A DNA stretch of 24,693 bases from a virus, in the IMG/VR virus record IMGVR_UViG_3300010391_001666, positions 1 to 24,693 of that record, one strand, 5' to 3'. Of the stretch, positions 713-16,612 are shown in pieces; the first letter of the stretch is position 1; each line of letters opens with the position of its first letter. The notes under the pieces were generated by a model. The model was not told the DNA's origin, searched no databases, and saw only the letters and a program-made list of their open reading frames with translations. A program made the position numbers and the translations under genes.

Positions 713-2452
713 TCACGCGAACCTCTTGCGGCGCATGGACCTGGCGGCGGGGAGCAGGATCGCGCGCCGCAAGAATGGACCGAGCGCTGCTTCCGCTTGG
801 CTATCAGGGTCCATCGCGTTTGCCGAGTGGAGAAATCCGGCGCTCAACGGCAGGGGGTAAATGGTGAGCTTGAGGATGTTGGAGACGCGATCCGCAACAG
901 CGGAGTGGACCCACATCCGGAGCAGCTCGCGCAACTTGGGCCCGGTGGCGGAAGCCACAGCGGCGCTGAAGTTTGCGGCTTTCTCTACGAGCCTGATCTT
1001 CTCGAGCGCGATCGTCTGCAGGCGGCGCTGGCTGAAGCGCAGCTGTGTCCCTTCACCCTCGAGCGCGGCGAGCTCGGCACGAATCGCGCGAATGCGCGGC
1101 GCGACTTCTTCCTCTGAGAGGGTTTCGCTCCCGGCCAGCTTGACCAAGCGATCACGCTCGGCGAGTAGCTTCGCCCGGCGGCGCTCCACGTCGTCCGCAC
1201 GTTTCGGCTGGGCGCCGGCGAGGCGGGCGAGTAGCCGATCGGCCGCGCGCTCGAGTACCGTGCGCATGGCAGAGCTTCCGACCAGGTCCGCGACGGCGGC
1301 GATCACCGCGGGCTCGACAATGCGCTTGGGGAGCGTGGCCATCAGGGCGGGGCATGCCGAGACCGGGCTCGGCTGAAACGGCTTCGGGTTGCTCAGCAGG
1401 GCGTGGCGGTAGAAGCGGTAGCGGTTCGGCTCCTCGGCCGGTCCCTTCGGTCCACCGCCGCCGATCAATGTGTCCCCGCAGTGCGCGCAGGTCAGAAGCC
1501 CGGAGAGCGGATAGCCGCCGGCCGAGAGCCGGGTCTTACCGCGGTTGAGCTGGAACCGCGCCTGCACCTGATCGAAGAGCGGGCGGCCGACGAGCGCCGG
1601 GTGGGCATCGCGCACGATCGTCCAGGCGGCTGGATCCGTCCGCACCTGGTCCTCGGCGCCGGGCGCGCTCATCCGCCGGCCCCAGACGACGTCGCCGGCG
1701 TAGGCCGGGTTCTGCAGCAGGGCGCGGACGACCTGCTTACTCCACTTCTTCGAAGGGTGGCGCTGATAGGCTAAGTCGGCTAGCCGCTCGCAGCTGAGCT
1801 CGCCCTTCGCGTATTCCCGGAAGAGCCAGCGGACCAAGCGGACTTCGTCCTCTGGGCCCGGCGTCAGCTTGGCCCGTTCGTCCTTGCTCTTCTCCTGGCC
1901 CAGCTCGAGCACCCGCCGGCGGCCATCGCCAGCGATCGCCTCCCGGCGGTAGCCGAACGGCGCCTCGGTGCCCCAGAGGCCCTTGCTGGCGGTGCCCAGC
2001 GACCCGCGGCGGGCGGTCGCGCGCAGCGCCTCACGGTAGACGGTGGCCTGGCTCCACTGCAGGGAGTTGAGGACGGGGCCCGCCGGGGTGTCCTCCATCT
2101 CGCCGCCCTCGGCGAAGCGCAGCGTCCAGCCGACGTGCTTCATCTCCTGCGCCCACCAGGTGGCATCGTTCGCGTCGGGGAAGCGGCCCCATCGGGAGTG
2201 ATTGAAACAGAGGATGACGCCCCGGGCGGCACGAGGGAGCGGGGTCGATCGACAGAATGCGGCCAGAGCCTGGAACCCGGGGCGGTTCGCGGAGCCGCCG
2301 GACGCGCCCGGATCCTCGAACCAGCGGCCGATCGTCCGCCCGAGACGCTGCGCGAGCTGCTCGGAGGCAGCGCGCTGCTGGGCAAGCGACGTGTGGTCGC
2401 CGCGCGCCTGCTCTTCCGTACTGACCCTGAGATAAGCGACGGTGTCGGTCAC
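713..2452 (-). CDS. Large serine recombinase (phage integrase)
   Basis: The protein has 579 residues from a GTG that overlaps the upstream stop (GTGA); an upstream ATG would add 14 atypical residues. The N-terminal resolvase domain opens with VAYLRVSTEEQ, placing the catalytic serine at about residue 11. The SR motif follows in FNHSRWGR near 84-91. The recombinase domain contains GTEAPFGYRR around 161-170. A zinc ribbon begins with LLTCAHCGDTL near 320 and continues with a cysteine at about 367. A long coiled-coil segment spans about 410-490, as in large serine integrases. This family cuts attP and attB with double-strand breaks through a 5'-phosphoserine link. It would integrate or excise this phage. 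It is unusual in being embedded in a tight operon. Confidence 0.95.
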   Translation of the reverse strand: MTDTVAYLRVSTEEQARGDHTSLAQQRAASEQLAQRLGRTIGRWFEDPGASGGSANRPGFQALAAFCRSTPLPRAARGVILCFNHSRWGRFPDANDATWWAQEMKHVGWTLRFAEGGEMEDTPAGPVLNSLQWSQATVYREALRATARRGSLGTASKGLWGTEAPFGYRREAIAGDGRRRVLELGQEKSKDERAKLTPGPEDEVRLVRWLFREYAKGELSCERLADLAYQRHPSKKWSKQVVRALLQNPAYAGDVVWGRRMSAPGAEDQVRTDPAAWTIVRDAHPALVGRPLFDQVQARFQLNRGKTRLSAGGYPLSGLLTCAHCGDTLIGGGGPKGPAEEPNRYRFYRHALLSNPKPFQPSPVSACPALMATLPKRIVEPAVIAAVADLVGSSAMRTVLERAADRLLARLAGAQPKRADDVERRRAKLLAERDRLVKLAGSETLSEEEVAPRIRAIRAELAALEGEGTQLRFSQRRLQTIALEKIRLVEKAANFSAAVASATGPKLRELLRMWVHSAVADRVSNILKLTIYPLPLSAGFLHSANAMDPDSQAEAALGPFLRRAILLPAARSMRRKRFA

Positions 2453-8555: not shown

Positions 8556-9857
8556 TCAGGATTCGAGGAAGAGAACGGGAAGGGCAACGACCTGACGTGG
8601 CGTCGGATAGTCGATCAGTCCGAGCGATCGCAGGCGACCGAGATTGTTGAAGTAGCCGCCGGAGGTCGGGCTCTGGCCGGCGGCCTCGGCCAGGTCGTCC
8701 TTGCCGATTGCGTCAGGGTATTGTCGGATGACCTCGGCGAGGACCTTCTGCTGCGAGCCGCTGAGCTTCGCAAAGAGCATCCGGTGGAGCTCCTCGCTCG
8801 TGGTCGGCACGTCGACCGGCTCAGCCGTCTCCCGCCCTACCTCGGTGAGCGCCACAGTTCCGGCGGAGGGATAGGTGATCAACCCTGTGGTGCGCAGCAC
8901 ACCAAGGTTGTTGAAATAGCCGCCGCTGGTGGGGCTCGCGTCGGCCATGAGCGCGAGCATCGTCTTGTCTGCGGTCGCCTTCCCGATCGTCTCCAGCCAA
9001 GCGAGTGCATTCAGGATCCGGTGCTGCGAGCTGGAAAGATTGCCTGCGGGAGCGGGTCCGCTTTTTCCGGCGATCGGAGGACCCGGCCGAGCCAAAACTG
9101 CAGGCGGCCGCTGCAGATTCGCCGCTAGCCGCGGCGGGGGCGGGAAGTGGCCGTTGGTGTGGAACCGGGTCAGGCTGGCCTGGAGCTCCTTGCAGACCGT
9201 GGCCAGCTGCTGGTCCGACGCCGTCACTCGTTCTTGGAAGGTCCGGAGCAGCTCGCCCATGCGGCCCGCTTCGCGCTCCCGGGCCGCGGCCATGCCGGCG
9301 ATCGCGCCCTCGAGGCGCTTGAGCTGGCCCTCCTTGAGCACCCCGATCTCGACCCGCTTCTCGACGGGCTTTGCAGTCTGCACGGGCGCGGGCTGGGCCC
9401 GCTTCGCCAGAGTCAGCTCCCGGCGGGTGGTCGCGAGCTCCTGTTGCACCTCCTTGAGGCTACGGCTCCGCTCCTCCGCCTCGGCCGGCAGGTCGGCCAG
9501 CTTGGGTAGGAGCGCGCGCACCTTCGCGGTTGGCGGGGGCGGCGGCGCCGAGAGCCGGGCGCCGGCCTTGGGATGCGACGTCGACACGGACCCGACATGG
9601 ACGCGCTGCACCTCGCCGGTGAGCGCGGGACCGAACGCGAAGAAGGTGCCCGGCGGCAGTTCCCGCAGCTCGCGCCAGCGCTCCTTGCCAAACCCGAGTT
9701 CGTCGGCCGCCCGGCGCTGGTCGATGTCGAGTCCCGTCCGCCCGATCAATTTGTTGTTGCATTCCGCCGCGGCATCTTTGTTGAGCTTCGAGAGGCGTTG
9801 CGTCGCGAGCACCGCGCAGAAGCCGCGCTTCCTGCCGCGGGTGGCGAGGTCGATCAC
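8556..9857 (-). CDS. HerA-like ATPase, C-terminal part with two winged-helix repeats
   Basis: This is the second half of a HerA/FtsK-superfamily ATPase whose N-terminal half is encoded immediately upstream. Residues 1-80 hold the post-Walker-B region: LATRGRKRGFCAVLATQRLS, then NNKLIGRTG and an oligomeric arginine-rich segment. A Pro-rich linker and a coiled coil follow at about 120-230. The C-terminus has two copies of a winged-helix module, marked by SPTSGGYFNNLG at about 308 and 396. The GTG start overlaps the upstream stop by four bases. Adding one base in the GC-rich palindrome at the junction would fuse the halves as KGEAEA-AGAVIDLATRG, the expected uninterrupted motif, so a frameshift is likely. 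Confidence 0.85.
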   Translation of the reverse strand: MIDLATRGRKRGFCAVLATQRLSKLNKDAAAECNNKLIGRTGLDIDQRRAADELGFGKERWRELRELPPGTFFAFGPALTGEVQRVHVGSVSTSHPKAGARLSAPPPPPTAKVRALLPKLADLPAEAEERSRSLKEVQQELATTRRELTLAKRAQPAPVQTAKPVEKRVEIGVLKEGQLKRLEGAIAGMAAAREREAGRMGELLRTFQERVTASDQQLATVCKELQASLTRFHTNGHFPPPPRLAANLQRPPAVLARPGPPIAGKSGPAPAGNLSSSQHRILNALAWLETIGKATADKTMLALMADASPTSGGYFNNLGVLRTTGLITYPSAGTVALTEVGRETAEPVDVPTTSEELHRMLFAKLSGSQQKVLAEVIRQYPDAIGKDDLAEAAGQSPTSGGYFNNLGRLRSLGLIDYPTPRQVVALPVLFLES

Positions 9858-10318
9858 CGCGCCGGCGCTTCCGCCTCGCCCTTCTCTGGGCAGAAGACAT
9901 GCGCCTCGTCGACCACGACTAGAACCGGATGCCAGAGTTGCTTGCGCGCGTTAACCAGGGCCTCAAGAAAGAGACGGACGAAGCGAATGCGATCATGTGC
10001 CTTAAGCTCGTAAATGTCGAGCACGGCGGAAGCGCCGAGTTCGAGCAATCGCTCGGCGAGCAGCGTAGCGGCGCGCGTATCCGCCACAGTGTCGCCATGC
10101 TGCCTCGCCGCCAGGACGTAGTCGAACCGCTCGCGGAGGGTCGAGAACTCCCCTTCGGGGTCGAGTACGAGATGCTGGACCTCGCCGTGCGTCTGCTCAA
10201 GCAACCGGCGAATCGCCCAGCTCTTTCCGCCCCCACTGTTCGCCTGGATCAGCAGGCGGCTGTCGACCAGCTTCTCGAGGTCGCAGCGCACGCCGGCGCC
10301 CAAGTCGAACGATTTCAC
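9854..10318 (-). CDS. HerA-like ATPase, N-terminal half with Walker A and B
   Basis: The 154 residues begin with a short strand region and a Walker A loop, ANSGGGKSW at about 26-34. The Walker B strand, LVVVDEAH, lies at about 133-140, followed by VFCPEKGEAE. The frame then stops exactly where homologous ATPases continue. The missing part is in the gene downstream. HerA-type ATPases are hexameric DNA translocases, and in phages they may serve replication, recombination or DNA movement. If the split is real, the two polypeptides would have to associate to form the ATPase. The GTG start overlaps the stop of the helicase-loader-like gene. Confidence 0.87.
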   Translation of the reverse strand: MKSFDLGAGVRCDLEKLVDSRLLIQANSGGGKSWAIRRLLEQTHGEVQHLVLDPEGEFSTLRERFDYVLAARQHGDTVADTRAATLLAERLLELGASAVLDIYELKAHDRIRFVRLFLEALVNARKQLWHPVLVVVDEAHVFCPEKGEAEAPAR

Positions 10319-11702: not shown

Positions 11703-12073
11703 GCGGCGGCATCGCCGTCACCCGTGACCTGTAGCCGCCGCAACTCCCGCTCACCCGCTGGCGTGACTTCCAACACGGCCGCGGTCCCTCCATGCTGGGT
11801 CGGCCGACGGGGGAGCTTGGTCTTGGCTAGACACCGCTCGTCCACGAGCTCCGTCGCTCTGGGCCGCACCGCCAGCACGTCCATGCCGAGCCCATCGGAG
11901 CAGTCGTCAGCCGTGCCCCGTCGATAGGCCACGAACCAGGTGAGCACGCGGCGCCGATCGTGGGCGCGCTTCTGGGCGTTGGAGTGCTGCTGCCCAACCT
12001 CGAACAGGGGCAGGTCCCCGGTGCCCCGGTACTCGGGACGGTCACGCTGACTGGTGCGGAAGGCGGATGCCAT
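11699..12073 (-). CDS. Winged-helix DNA-binding protein, 124 residues
   Basis: Residues around 50-110 look like a winged helix. TADDCSDGLGMDVLAVRPRA would hold the turn and recognition helix (the usual pattern is D-x-x-A-x-x-LG...VRPRxTEL). TELVDERCLAK follows, then the wing with TAAVLEVTPAG. The N-terminal part is basic. The ATG shares its A with the methylase stop (TAATG). It is probably a regulator or replication accessory that binds DNA. Confidence 0.72.
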   Translation of the reverse strand: MASAFRTSQRDRPEYRGTGDLPLFEVGQQHSNAQKRAHDRRRVLTWFVAYRRGTADDCSDGLGMDVLAVRPRATELVDERCLAKTKLPRRPTQHGGTAAVLEVTPAGERELRRLQVTGDGDAAA

Positions 12074-12594
12074 TAGGCGACTTCCACAGAAAGCTGCCGG
12101 GTGGCCATGAGATCGGCTGTGCGTGGCGAAAGCCAGAGCACTTCGGTCCGACGCCGCGCGCCGTCAGCGCGATGTTCCCGCTCGAAGCGCTGCCAGTCGG
12201 GATACAACTGCTCGTCGTAGAGCGGGCAGGGATAGCCTGAGAGAACGACCAGCCCTCGGACATGATGCAGCACGGCAGCTAGAGCCCGGTGGTCTTCGTC
12301 GCTCATCTCCTCGCTGTAGGCGGCGTTGCCGCGCTGCATATTGCGCGTGCTGTGCGGATACGGCGGATCGGCGTAGAAAAGAGTTTCCGGGCTATCGTGC
12401 TGAGCGATCACATCGAGCGCCGGGCGATTCTCGACGGTGACCCCGCGCAGCCGCTCGACGAAGGCGGCGATCTGCTCCGGGTAGTGCTGCCAGTCGTGCG
12501 CCGGCGTAGTTCCGGATCTGTTGCTGTTCGCGCGGAAGCCAGTGACGTAGGCGCCATTGGTGGACGCGGATCCAAAGCCAGCAAAGGAGCGCAA
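12073..12594 (-). CDS. Adenine methyltransferase, C-terminal fragment (frameshifted gene)
   Basis: This frame carries the catalytic DPPY motif (LFYADPPYPHST) and the C-terminal EVLWLSP end of a D12-class (Dam-like) N6-adenine DNA methyltransferase. Coding in this frame extends upstream of the first ATG to about base 12626 (QADPVENARRTILRSFAGFG), where it meets the N-terminal fragment. Adding one C to the CCCC run near 12630 would make a single gene of about 285 codons. As written, no single protein would contain both AdoMet-binding and catalytic motifs. Confidence 0.82.
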   Translation of the reverse strand: MRSFAGFGSASTNGAYVTGFRANSNRSGTTPAHDWQHYPEQIAAFVERLRGVTVENRPALDVIAQHDSPETLFYADPPYPHSTRNMQRGNAAYSEEMSDEDHRALAAVLHHVRGLVVLSGYPCPLYDEQLYPDWQRFEREHRADGARRRTEVLWLSPRTADLMATRQLSVEVA

Positions 12595-12614
12595 GATCGT
12601 GCGCCGGGCGTTCT

Positions 12615-12926
12615 CTACCGGATCGGCCTGTTGGGGTAGGCGGTAAAGAACTCATCGCGGGCGTAAGGGGTAAGCGTCAGCAGCTCGCAAAGCCTCCGCG
12701 CCTGCTCCGGATCGCGGAGCACCCGAAAGACGTTGACTACAGTGGCCCAGCGGTCGTTGTACACCTCCCCGTAACTCCGCGACTTGCGAAGCAGGACCGA
12801 AGCGGCTCCCCCGAAGGGCTCCACGTAGACCCGGTGCACCGGGAAGTGTTCGATGACCCAGAGCGCCAGCTTCCACTTGCCGCCGTGGTACCGTAATACC
12901 GGACGTCGCAACGCCCGGGCGCTCAT
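12615..12926 (-). CDS. Adenine methyltransferase, N-terminal fragment (frameshifted gene)
   Basis: The fragment has the D12-class N-terminal signatures LRYHGGKW near residue 11 and VEPFGGAASVLL near 34-45, which bind S-adenosylmethionine. The frame ends prematurely after FFTAYPNRPIR. One base is missing, probably in the CCCC run of the Tyr-Pro codons, because the downstream frame continues the family consensus with no gap (Y-P-Q-Q-A-D-P-V-E). The methylase would modify adenine in phage DNA, perhaps to evade host restriction. It lies downstream of the cytosine methyltransferase gene in the operon. Confidence 0.82.
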   Translation of the reverse strand: MSARALRRPVLRYHGGKWKLALWVIEHFPVHRVYVEPFGGAASVLLRKSRSYGEVYNDRWATVVNVFRVLRDPEQARRLCELLTLTPYARDEFFTAYPNRPIR

Positions 12927-12963: not shown

Positions 12964-13773
12964 TCACGCGGCCCTGACAGGTCGGTAGACGTGGGCGATG
13001 TGGCGAGCAAGCGCCAGCGGTATTTTGGCAATGCGGGCCGAGGCTGCCTTCCGATTCTTTCCCGCGTGAAAGGTCGGTCGCGTGTAGCCAGGTTCTTGCC
13101 AGTCGCGCCAGTTGACGCCACTACCACCGCGCTTAACACCATCAGCGAGCAAACGACCATCCGGGTTCCTGCTGTGCCCGCTGCCCGTGTTATGGGCCAC
13201 CGTGAACCAGGAGCCGCCCTCGTTTTTCGTGGCGCGCTCTGCCGAGCCATTGAAGGCTTGAGGTTTGTAATCGGGTTTACCGAAGTCAGCCCAGGAGAAG
13301 CCGCCAACCTTTGCCGTCCGGACGGGGCTCGGCATCAGCGCCGGTACATCACCCCACAAGTAGTATGATCCGTAATGCCAAGCCGCTTTCCCAACCCACT
13401 TCTGTGCGCCTCGGACGTTCTCGACCACGAGCGGGATGTGGCGACGCGCTGCTGCACTCGCCTCCCGCTGTATCCGGAAGCACGCCTCGAATAGAGTGTT
13501 ATCCGGTGGCGGCAATGCTTTCGCCCGCTTCCACGGCATCGCCCGATAGCTGTAGGCTTGGCACGGTGGGGAGGCAACGATCACCGCGGCATCCCGGAAC
13601 TGCGCCCCGTGCAGCGTCAGCACGTCCTGAATGACCAGTTGCGCCGGATACCGATGCTCCCCGTAGATATGACGCTCAATGTCGAATCCGATCACGGTGA
13701 ACCCTTCGGCGAGAAGCCCTTCGGTCCAGCCCCCGAGGCCACAGTACAGGTCGATTGCGAGCGGGCGCGTCAT
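12964..13773 (-). CDS. C5-cytosine DNA methyltransferase
   Basis: The 269-residue protein shows motif I (LYCGLGGWTEGL, about 9-20), motif IV with the catalytic Cys (ASPPCQAYS, Cys at about 71) and motif VI (ENVRGAQ, about 118-124). It is shorter than typical 330-400 residue enzymes, with a compact target-recognition region. The enzyme transfers methyl from AdoMet to C5 of cytosine through a covalent Cys adduct. No cognate restriction endonuclease is visible, so it is probably an orphan protecting phage DNA. It is encoded just downstream of the tmRNA gene. GGTGA ahead of the ATG is a plausible ribosome-binding site. Confidence 0.88.
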   Translation of the reverse strand: MTRPLAIDLYCGLGGWTEGLLAEGFTVIGFDIERHIYGEHRYPAQLVIQDVLTLHGAQFRDAAVIVASPPCQAYSYRAMPWKRAKALPPPDNTLFEACFRIQREASAAARRHIPLVVENVRGAQKWVGKAAWHYGSYYLWGDVPALMPSPVRTAKVGGFSWADFGKPDYKPQAFNGSAERATKNEGGSWFTVAHNTGSGHSRNPDGRLLADGVKRGGSGVNWRDWQEPGYTRPTFHAGKNRKAASARIAKIPLALARHIAHVYRPVRAA

Positions 13774-13878
13774 GTCGTCACCAGCGGGCGCGGGAACTCA
13801 CGCAACAAGATTGCACATCGGGTCTCGGCCACGGGTCGGGAGACTCCCCTAAACCACAGGGTGAACCTGCTTCGTCAG

Positions 13879-14235
13879 TGGAGCTGGCGGGAATTGAACC
13901 CGCGTCCGCAACGTCTTACTCGATGGTCGAGATACGCGCGTGCCGACGTTGCTGGAGTGTCGGCCCTCTGCCGCCTCTAATGCGGCCCTCGTCCTCCACC
14001 AGCTCGTCTTTCCGAGTCGTCAGCCCCATCCGGAGCCGGTCGCGTTTACCTGGGTGACCGCTGTTCTTACGCGGCCATCGCCAGCGGGCGGTTCATCACA
14101 CCACGCTGACGGAACGCAAAAACCTTCGCCTGAGACTTCATCGTCTTGGCATTTGATCGTTGTCGCCTGTAAGGCCCGGCGACCCTCCGCGCGCCCGCAC
14201 ACCTTTCGTCTGTCACGTTGAAACCTGTCAGCCCC
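13879..14235 (-). ncRNA. ssrA: tmRNA (transfer-messenger RNA), one-piece, phage-borne
   Basis: The 5' end reads GGGGCTGACAGGTTTCAAC, the standard tmRNA start. It pairs with CAGCTCC at the 3' end to form the 7-bp acceptor stem, with an A discriminator. The 3' part GGACGCGGGTTCAATTCCCG is the T arm and closely matches bacterial tmRNA. CCA is not encoded. Length is about 357 bases. A hairpin with GTCGCC/GGCGAC arms sits where pseudoknot PK1 is expected, and the putative resume codon GCC follows 11 bases later, the E. coli-like spacing. tmRNA rescues stalled ribosomes by adding a degradation tag. The gene lies inside the phage early operon, on the same strand, between an HNH-like nuclease gene and a methylase gene. 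Confidence 0.93.
14067..14150 (-). other. Inferred tmRNA tag-peptide reading frame
   Basis: From the GCC resume codon the frame starts AKTMKSQAKV, continues FAFRQRGVMN and ends RPLAMAA before TAA: 27 residues plus the Ala carried by tmRNA. The final LAMAA resembles the hydrophobic Ala-rich ends recognised by ClpXP-type proteases (such as ALAA). The tag is basic, with no acidic residues. The resume codon is inferred from spacing to the PK1-like hairpin and an A at position -4. Alternative frames either stop within eight codons or run on for over 40. Confidence 0.7.
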
Positions 14236-14416
14236 GCGAAACACTTTCTACTGCTATTGCACCGGGGGAGCTTGAATCCCCACCTTCACGGCCAACCCCG
14301 CAATTGCCTATCAGCTCGGTGCGATCCTGATCAGGTGTGCGGTTCCTGTCGGCGCTTCCTGGGTTGGGCTGCGACACTGCGCAGTGCCCTCCCACTTCCG
14401 CCTTCTGACCCAGAGG
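14236..14416. other. Spacer upstream of tmRNA, no convincing gene
   Basis: About 180 bases separate the HNH-like gene from the tmRNA 5' end. A -10-like TAGAAA on the minus strand lies about 10 bases upstream of the tmRNA start, but no good -35 was found. A 55-codon GTG frame runs through the spacer into the tmRNA and is probably non-coding. The space may hold the tmRNA's own promoter. Confidence 0.4.
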
Positions 14417-14857
14417 TCAGCGAGCTGCCGGCGGCGGGCTTGTCCGCTCCGCTTCGCTCCGCTGCTGAACGACCTGCCACCGTTCTTCGTAATCCCGCGC
14501 CAGGGCTCGAGTGTCGATTTCAAAGCGTCGTTCGAGGGCGCGGTCGCTATGCTGGTGCGCGAACTTGTGCAGATGATCCGCCAGCGGGATGAGCTGCTCG
14601 GATCGTCCCCCGGCCCCACGGCTCGGGAAGTGCGCCGCGACCACGACGACCTGCACCAGGCCGAGCTCGCGATCTTTCACCCACTGCCCCGTGAACCGAC
14701 CGGTGAGGCAACAGCGCTGCTTCCTGATCCACTCCCCCTTCGCTCCGAAGGCGCGCGCATAGGCTTTCTTGGCCCGGGCTTCATTCCGCGCCGGGATGGG
14801 CAGCTTCCCCTTCGGTTGCCGCGGGGGCGGCTTGGGACAGGCATTCGGGAGGTTCAT
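14417..14857 (-). CDS. HNH-like nuclease of the DUF968 / phage recombination type
   Basis: The 146-residue frame begins at the ATG of MNLPNACPKPPPRQPKGK, which overlaps the previous stop. The upstream extension in the long frame is a shadow. The N-terminus is basic. The core has RKQRCCLTGR, then VVVVAAHFPSRGAGGRSEQL followed by IPLADHLH and KFAHQ. AAH-x-SRGAGG-x-x-x-x-LIPL-x-x-x-LH is the recognisable active-site block of phage HNH-like nucleases. These are thought to act in phage recombination or Holliday-junction processing, which fits the adjacent RecT operon segment. Confidence 0.82.
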   Translation of the reverse strand: MNLPNACPKPPPRQPKGKLPIPARNEARAKKAYARAFGAKGEWIRKQRCCLTGRFTGQWVKDRELGLVQVVVVAAHFPSRGAGGRSEQLIPLADHLHKFAHQHSDRALERRFEIDTRALARDYEERWQVVQQRSEAERTSPPPAAR

Positions 14858-15383: not shown

Positions 15384-15699
15384 CGAGCCCTCGCTTCGCC
15401 GCTTCTCGCTCATATTCACGGCGACCCTGCAACCCTTCGGTGAGCAAGGCGAGATAGAGGGGGTGCGCGTGGCTCTCATCATCGAGCAACGCCTCGGTGG
15501 GTTTTTGCCGGGTGGCGTACTGCGCCCGGAGGATCATCCGACAGGAGGACAGCCGCGCCTTGCGGAAGAAATCGAAGAAGCCGAAGGGTCCGAACCAGGC
15601 GAACAAGTCCACGGGGTCTGACGGGTCGAACGTCGGCAGAGCGATGGGTTCGGGCACGTCCACGGGGGGCTTCTTCCACGCCTCCGGCAAGGCGGTCAT
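15376..15699 (-). CDS. Hypothetical protein, 107 residues
   Basis: The product has a Pro-rich N-terminus, an aromatic block (DLFAWFGPFGFFDFFRKARL) and a helical charged tail. The Phe-rich block could be an amphipathic interaction surface, but too many polar residues surround it for a confident membrane call. It lies immediately after RecT in transcription order, with an ATGA overlap, so a recombination accessory is conceivable. No homology is evident to me. Confidence 0.72.
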   Translation of the reverse strand: MTALPEAWKKPPVDVPEPIALPTFDPSDPVDLFAWFGPFGFFDFFRKARLSSCRMILRAQYATRQKPTEALLDDESHAHPLYLALLTEGLQGRREYEREAAKRGLGA

Positions 15700-16457
15700 G
15701 CGACGACCGCCTTGAGCTGCACCGCCTTCTTCTGGCGTCCGGTTTCCAGGATCTCATCCAGCAGCAAGGCCATCTTCTGCTTGGTGATTCCGGGAAGCCG
15801 TTGGCTGTACTCGTCGCGTTCTTCGTCAGTCCAGACCGGAGACTTGAGCGCCTTGGAGAACAAGTGCTGCTGTCCTTCGGTCGGCGCCTCGCCGGTTTCC
15901 TCAACACTGGCCTGCACGGGCAACACTTCCCCGGAGACTTCTTCCACGACGGACTGGCCGCCGATTTCCCCAGGGGCATACGTCCCTGCAGTGGCGTCGA
16001 AACCCACGTCCTTCAACCCCTGGGTGATGGCACGCGACCGCAGCATTGCCTTGGGGTACTTCTTCCAGGTGTCATTGATGAGGCCCGCGCGCTTCGCGTC
16101 CTCCATCGAGAAAGACGAGGTATGCGGGGCGGTGAGCCAGGGAGCCGAGAGCTTCACTGCGGCCCTGCTGTCGCTCAGCTCCTCCCATTGACTCTTACCC
16201 CCGGCTCGATGGAAGAGCCCAAGCTGGAGATCCGCGCTGACTTCAATTTTGCCTTGGATGATCGTCAACCCACGCAATGCGGCGACGGGCGACAAACCCA
16301 AGTCACGGCCGGCGAGGATGACGAACAACACCGCCTCGGGCGTCTTGAGCGCCGCGGGGCACAGTCCGGATTTGAGCAGGTACTGCGCGCCCAGCATCTC
16401 TTGGTCCCACGCCACGGGAGCGGCGGGGTTGATCTCTCGAATCGCAACAGCGGTCAT
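15696..16457 (-). CDS. recT: RecT-family single-strand annealing protein
   Basis: The 253-residue protein starts at the ATG of MTAVAIREINP. GGAG lies just upstream, and the ATG overlaps the stop of the small membrane-protein gene. The core reads GRDLGLSPVAALRGLTIIQG, KIEVSADLQLGLFHRAGG and FSMEDAKRAGL, then NDTWKKYPKAMLRSRAITQG. This is the typical RecT order: a P-x-x-ALRG-x-x-IQGK block, a SA-x-L-x-x-x-L helix, then DAKRAGL and W-x-KYP-x-x-ML-x-RA. RecT binds ssDNA and pairs complementary strands in phage recombination. The acidic C-terminal third is variable. The usual RecE-type exonuclease partner is not visible, but VRR-NUC-like and HNH-like nucleases are in the operon. Confidence 0.88.
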   Translation of the reverse strand: MTAVAIREINPAAPVAWDQEMLGAQYLLKSGLCPAALKTPEAVLFVILAGRDLGLSPVAALRGLTIIQGKIEVSADLQLGLFHRAGGKSQWEELSDSRAAVKLSAPWLTAPHTSSFSMEDAKRAGLINDTWKKYPKAMLRSRAITQGLKDVGFDATAGTYAPGEIGGQSVVEEVSGEVLPVQASVEETGEAPTEGQQHLFSKALKSPVWTDEERDEYSQRLPGITKQKMALLLDEILETGRQKKAVQLKAVVA

Positions 16458-16612
16458 AGTTTGCTCCATTCCTTCCATCGGTTGCGAAGATTGCTCCAGC
16501 GCCAGCCCGCACAGGCTTCCCGATACAATGCTGGTGCCGCGGCGATCAGACAGAGCCACGCGACCACTCCGCTGACATAGAGTGCCTGGTCCAGTCGGTC
16601 GAAGCCGGTCAT
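16454..16612 (-). CDS. Small membrane protein, 52 residues
   Basis: The frame starts MTGFDRLDQALYV, has a hydrophobic stretch (VSGVVAWLCLIAAAPALY) and ends in a basic, Trp-rich tail (WRWSNLRNRWKEWSKL). The ATG overlaps the previous stop and the TGA overlaps the RecT ATG, so the gene is well anchored in the operon. It looks like a single-span membrane peptide with a basic amphipathic tail. The function is unknown. Confidence 0.72.
   Translation of the reverse strand: MTGFDRLDQALYVSGVVAWLCLIAAAPALYREACAGWRWSNLRNRWKEWSKL

Follow-up and report, generated by a model that had tools for sequence, protein, structure and literature searches.

The window, 24,693 bases long, spans the whole of a linear IMG/VR virus record and contains one tmRNA (ssrA) gene (Table 1). 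ARAGORN, run over the whole window, called a single tmRNA at complement(13878..14235), and the Rfam model RF00023 matched complement(13876..14235) with 77.8 bits (gathering cut-off, 47 bits) and an E value of 6.9e-29, covering model positions 1-374 and hence the full length of the model. At this E value, a chance match is negligible. Against cellular tmRNAs, however, the score is low, since the 21 that we compared reach 106-221 bits. The 5' end of the RNA lies at 14235, which we number as RNA position 1, the discriminator is an A at 13879, and the CCA is absent from the gene. These results confirm that the phage fragment carries a complete one-piece tmRNA gene, as claimed in the first-pass annotation: both programs return a full-length tmRNA, its resume codon is in place, and the coordinates and landmarks given in that annotation are correct, to which we add the strand, which is minus.

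Table 1 Features of the tmRNA locus and of the surrounding phage genes (window coordinates).
Feature	Position	Strand	Basis or remark
Large serine integrase	713..2446	minus	Pfam/PHROG
HerA-like ATPase, split by a single-base frameshift near 9860	8556-10318	minus	assembly error or pseudogene
Dam-type methylase, split by a single-base frameshift near 12617	12073-12926	minus	assembly error or pseudogene
C5 cytosine methyltransferase, downstream flank	12964..13773	minus	Pfam PF00145; phage relatives
One-piece tmRNA (ssrA) gene	13878..14235	minus	ARAGORN and RF00023
3' tRNA-like domain: T arm and acceptor 3' strand CAGCUCC	13878..13914	minus	ARAGORN
Extended H5-like hairpin in the tag region	14063..14123	minus	fold z -3.33
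Tag reading frame AKTMKSQAKVFAFRQRGVMNRPLAMAA-stop, resume codon GCC	14067..14150	minus	ARAGORN and tag comparison
PK1	14162..14187	minus	sequence read by eye and RF00023 alignment
D-loop block GGUUUCAAC, with A at 14219 for the near-invariant G19 (E. coli numbering)	14217..14225	minus	sequence and pattern comparison
Acceptor 5' strand GGGGCUG, partner CAGCUCC at 13880-13886	14229..14235	minus	sequence
Degenerate tRNA-like element, 21 nt 5' of the tmRNA	14257..14322	minus	acceptor/T-arm unit search
146-aa open frame, upstream flank, HNH-like by eye only	14417..14857	minus	open frame
RecT-like single-strand annealing protein, further upstream	15696..16595	minus	PHROG 561, E 6.6e-12; phage relatives

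Phage context of the gene

The tmRNA gene lies between same-strand neighbours, the HNH-like frame upstream and the C5-methylase downstream, in agreement with the phage flanks proposed earlier. The C5-methylase has relatives at 80 viral loci with 52-74% identity, and the 146-aa upstream frame has no family match and no relatives in viral contigs. Downstream, the genes follow in the order C5-methylase, Dam-type methylase, HerA-like ATPase, serine integrase and HNH endonuclease (Pfam/PHROG). Further upstream, the best phage record for the RecT-like protein matches it with 41.6% identity over half of the protein. The integrase has one relative in viral contigs (L298, 60% identical), which sits beside terminase-like and portal-like open frames. 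Because a large serine integrase is encoded, the phage is expected to be temperate, and the genes resemble an early region from a tailed, temperate phage whose lineage appears to be undescribed. A Pfam scan of the 40 open frames of this incomplete contig revealed neither SmpB nor other rescue factors, Rfam gave no match to a glutamine or other riboswitch beside the tmRNA gene, and no promoter or terminator near the gene was found by consensus.

In addition to the tmRNA, we noticed a tRNA-like element just 5' of it, with a 6-bp acceptor (GCACCG/CGGUGC) and a perfect T arm (GGGGA UUCAAGC UCCCC). This acceptor/T-arm unit is the sole one in the window, and none was found in 120 shuffled strand-windows. 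With poor D and anticodon arms, it is called by ARAGORN only at a strongly relaxed threshold and has no match to the Rfam tRNA model; it is probably a decayed tRNA.

No relatives of the locus with the same arrangement were found in searches with the methylase, RecT, integrase and upstream genes. ARAGORN found no tmRNA in the 89 viral loci reached via RecT and the methylase, and an Rfam search of 59 of their parent records likewise gave no RF00023 match above the cut-off. Since these 89 loci are distant relatives, each sharing one or two genes, their lack of a tmRNA indicates only that such phages do not generally carry one. At the DNA level, the only match among 50,697 phage records is 38 nt of the tmRNA 3' end, in one record. 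The integrase was not found in 64 genomes of one phylum, centred on a Gemmatimonadetes bin, or in 297 of another, centred on an Acidobacteria bin; as both phyla were guessed hosts, this result carries no information on the host.

Two genes of the contig are split by frameshifts, and the relative of the Dam-type methylase in L070 is a single unbroken frame. At least two such split genes imply that single-base errors exist in the phage or in the assembly; therefore, the unusual base and the tag frame described below need read support.

Conserved and divergent features of the RNA

The acceptor of the phage tmRNA is paired at all seven positions, as stated in the first-pass annotation, with a G-U at pair 3. 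This G3-U pair is the signal for alanyl-tRNA synthetase and thus for alanine identity (PMC8363625). The T arm is canonical, as also proposed earlier, with a perfect stem (GCGGG/CCCGC) and the loop UUCAAUU (ARAGORN). PK1 reads as an H-type pseudoknot in which GAGG (RNA positions 49-52) pairs with CCUU (62-65) and GUCGCC (53-58) pairs with GGCGAC (69-74). The spacer between its 3' strand and the resume codon GCC at RNA position 86 is exactly 11 nt, so the earlier placement of PK1 at the correct distance holds, and the spacing in the E. coli tmRNA is likewise 11 nt. The base four positions before the resume codon is an A (RNA position 82), equivalent to E. coli A86, which is essential in that its mutation destroys tmRNA activity (PMC2481249). 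PK2-PK4 are represented by candidate stems only and are poorly conserved.

The D-loop showed a distinct sequence, GGUUUCAAC, where tmRNAs have GGNUUCGAC; the G at position 19 is replaced by A. This position is near-invariant in tmRNA, although it does not define the family by itself. G stands there in all 42 of the other distinct one-piece tmRNAs with a recognisable motif. In E. coli, G19 stacks on SmpB, and the G19C change abolishes SmpB binding and trans-translation (PMC8363625). A pattern search with the A19 version, GGGGCTGA-N{0,3}-GGTTTCAACG, gave 53 matches, 2 in viral and 51 in genome contigs. ARAGORN calls a tmRNA at none of them, and looking for a partner T arm and acceptor likewise identified no tmRNA. 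The G version gave 45 tmRNAs among 52 matches in a control that covers viral stretches only. No cellular tmRNA sharing the A19 5' end was found among the 51 genome-contig matches.

The tag frame comprises 27 codons to UAA and ends in LAMAA-stop. The peptide, AKTMKSQAKVFAFRQRGVMNRPLAMAA, has a net charge of +6 and no acidic residue; the charges of the other AA-ending tags that we compared lie between -4 and +1, and no other tag that looks credible exceeds +2. When random sequence is matched for dinucleotide composition, ~1.0% of frames end in AA by chance and ~0.25% in AA preceded by hydrophobic residues, so the frame looks selected, although ARAGORN's own choice of frame could account for part of this appearance. 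As for the alternative frames, +1 stops within four codons, and +2 runs for ~43 codons without a degron-like end. The H5-like hairpin is matched in stability by 1 of 200 shuffles, and the UAA of the tag lies in its 3' foot, outside the loop. Because the tag is unusually basic and the SmpB-site base is altered, this tmRNA may act differently from the host copy.

Neither the G19-to-A change nor the unusual tag appears in the first-pass annotation. Long tags were also seen in other viral contigs, with 25 aa in L336 and 28 aa in L334. In L192 (3671-4053), the tag frame chosen by ARAGORN is apparently wrong, and another frame reads ANDEKFALAA.

Possible roles of the phage tmRNA

The role suggested in the first-pass annotation, ribosome rescue or retagging, would be a reasonable one. 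We favour, as probable though well short of certain, an active phage tmRNA that is used with host SmpB for ribosome rescue and the tagging of stalled products during takeover. The full-length calls by RF00023 and ARAGORN, the paired acceptor with its G3-U and the canonical T loop argue for this reading, as do PK1 with its 11-nt spacing, the A at -4 that matches A86, the 27-codon tag ending in LAMAA-stop, and the same-strand phage genes on both sides in a viral record. Against it stand the A at position 19, given the effect of G19C in E. coli, together with the low covariance score, the basic tag and the stop past the H5 loop. The lack of tmRNAs in the 89 related loci and the 59 records also counts against it, and the frameshift-split genes allow for errors at A19 or in the tag.

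If the gene is expressed, the tmRNA would be cut from a phage transcript, probably by host RNase P and 3' processing, and CCA would be added by the host. Host AlaRS would then charge it with alanine via the G3-U pair. Together with host SmpB, to which it is predicted to bind, and with host EF-Tu and ribosomes, the charged tmRNA may act during infection to rescue ribosomes that have stalled on broken mRNAs, and the 27-residue tag would mark the released products for host proteases. In this way, the phage tmRNA may supplement that of the host, or replace it, as translation is taken over by the phage, a role similar to that proposed for other phage tmRNAs (PMC9004378).

A retuned tmRNA, in which the changed SmpB-contact base and the long basic tag serve to inhibit host trans-translation or to divert stalled products from standard degradation, seems doubtful to us. 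The main rivals to an active tmRNA are a decoy, raised by the G19A change and the precedent of mycobacteriophage DS6A, and a decaying gene. As a decoy, the RNA would be alanylated and would keep a tmRNA-like fold, but A19 would weaken or alter the SmpB contact and leave it defective in rescue; it could then compete for AlaRS, SmpB or stalled ribosomes and dampen host trans-translation, as proposed for the DS6A RNA. The uniform G at position 19 in the 42 other tmRNAs compared, the failure of the A19 pattern to recover any tmRNA, the loss of SmpB binding in G19C and the inhibition of tmRNA by a phage RNA consisting of the tRNA-like domain only (PMC4131195, PMC11915505) all speak for a decoy. However, A, like G, is a purine and may stack in the same way, and a pure decoy would have no need of the tag frame, the resume spacing and the LAMAA end that are retained here; we regard this explanation as unlikely.

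Alternatively, the gene could be a non-functional tmRNA gene in decay, captured from a host or another phage, with the tRNA-like neighbour as a remnant of the same capture. The divergent middle, the weak score, G19A and the displaced stop are consistent with decay, as are the recognition of the tRNA-like neighbour at a relaxed threshold only and the absence of tmRNA from distantly related phages. Decay should nevertheless also hit the acceptor pairs, the T arm, PK1, the spacing, the A at -4 and the tag frame, all of which are intact, and we consider it improbable.

By analogy with tRNA-dependent lysogeny, the phage tmRNA might compensate for a host ssrA lost when the prophage integrates into ssrA. 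The phage encodes an integrase, and tRNA-dependent lysogeny offers a precedent, established for phages with tyrosine integrases (PMC10865867), but the integrase here is a serine recombinase while the described cases use tyrosine integrases, which makes compensation very unlikely.

An attachment-site fragment, or a host ssrA acquired through misassembly or imprecise excision, had to be considered because ssrA is a common integration site and because many viral-contig matches to the tmRNA 3' end are host-type genes with ANDENYALAA-type tags. In this contig, the 3' end has no duplicate, and elsewhere the region is matched over 18 nt at most. We reject the attachment-site reading because the gene is complete, its 3' end is unduplicated and the integrase, a serine recombinase, lies at a distance of 11 kb; the gene also lies mid-contig among co-oriented phage genes, and any host or attachment-site origin is thus highly improbable. 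These observations agree with the first-pass annotation, which had argued against an attachment-site fragment; the host chromosome around ssrA that it named as the opposing case was not found, and the whole record is viral.

It is equally hard to credit that sequence errors explain the oddities and conceal a gene with G19 and an ordinary tag: the contig has its two split genes, a neighbouring frame has DDE directly behind the resume codon, similar to the ANDD with which tags commonly start, and ARAGORN can choose a wrong tag frame as in L192, but a single indel near the start of the frame would lose LAMAA-stop, A19 is a substitution without an indel, and the integrase, C5-methylase and RecT align to their relatives without frameshifts.

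Comparison with known tmRNA systems

Phage tmRNAs are already established, including one-piece ones (PMC9004378, PMC4131195), and the present gene joins them with a set of unusual, testable details. The first-pass annotation had called phage tmRNAs known but uncommon; this holds, while their rarity was overstated, as one survey reported them in 402 of 18,146 phage genomes (PMC9004378). The known intact one-piece tmRNAs are joined here by one whose source is a temperate phage not described before, and its sequence provides a naturally occurring change at a base regarded as indispensable for the binding of SmpB. If the tmRNA is active, base 19 can change; inactivity or inhibition would instead suggest that the phage interferes with ribosome rescue.

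Our comparison also turned up other tmRNAs in viral contigs. Xanthomonas phage Rb1 (PQ569993.1; L267, 1447-1875) has a permuted two-piece tmRNA with the tag ANDDNFRPALRLAA by ARAGORN, in a record without an annotated feature there. One-piece or permuted tmRNAs with unusual tags (EYDYSVELPIGDSQPSYAYAA, AAFVAADYAVGA, and tags of 28 and 25 aa) occur in L172 (899-1314), L147 (6248-6647), L334 (c3348-3728) and L336 (113-479).

The phage gene resembles the standard one-piece bacterial tmRNA of RF00023 in its full-length match, G3-U acceptor, T arm, PK1, resume spacing, A at -4 and AA-stop, and differs from it in A19, the 27-aa tag with net +6, the stop beyond the H5 loop and the poorly conserved PK2-PK4. 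As in mycobacteriophages Bxz1, Cali, Catera and Wildcat and in Bacillus phage G (PMC4131195), a complete tmRNA is found among phage genes, but here in another lineage, on a 24.7-kb fragment whose temperate parent phage is undescribed and encodes a serine integrase. The Melnitz tmRNA (PMC9004378) likewise lies in a phage operon, with a suggested early action; it is a permuted two-piece tmRNA with a glutamine riboswitch, while the gene described here is one-piece and has no Rfam riboswitch match nearby. Finally, the DS6A RNA (PMC4131195, PMC11915505) is also a phage RNA with a tmRNA-like acceptor and T domain, but it consists of the tRNA-like domain only and lacks the tag region that the present gene contains.
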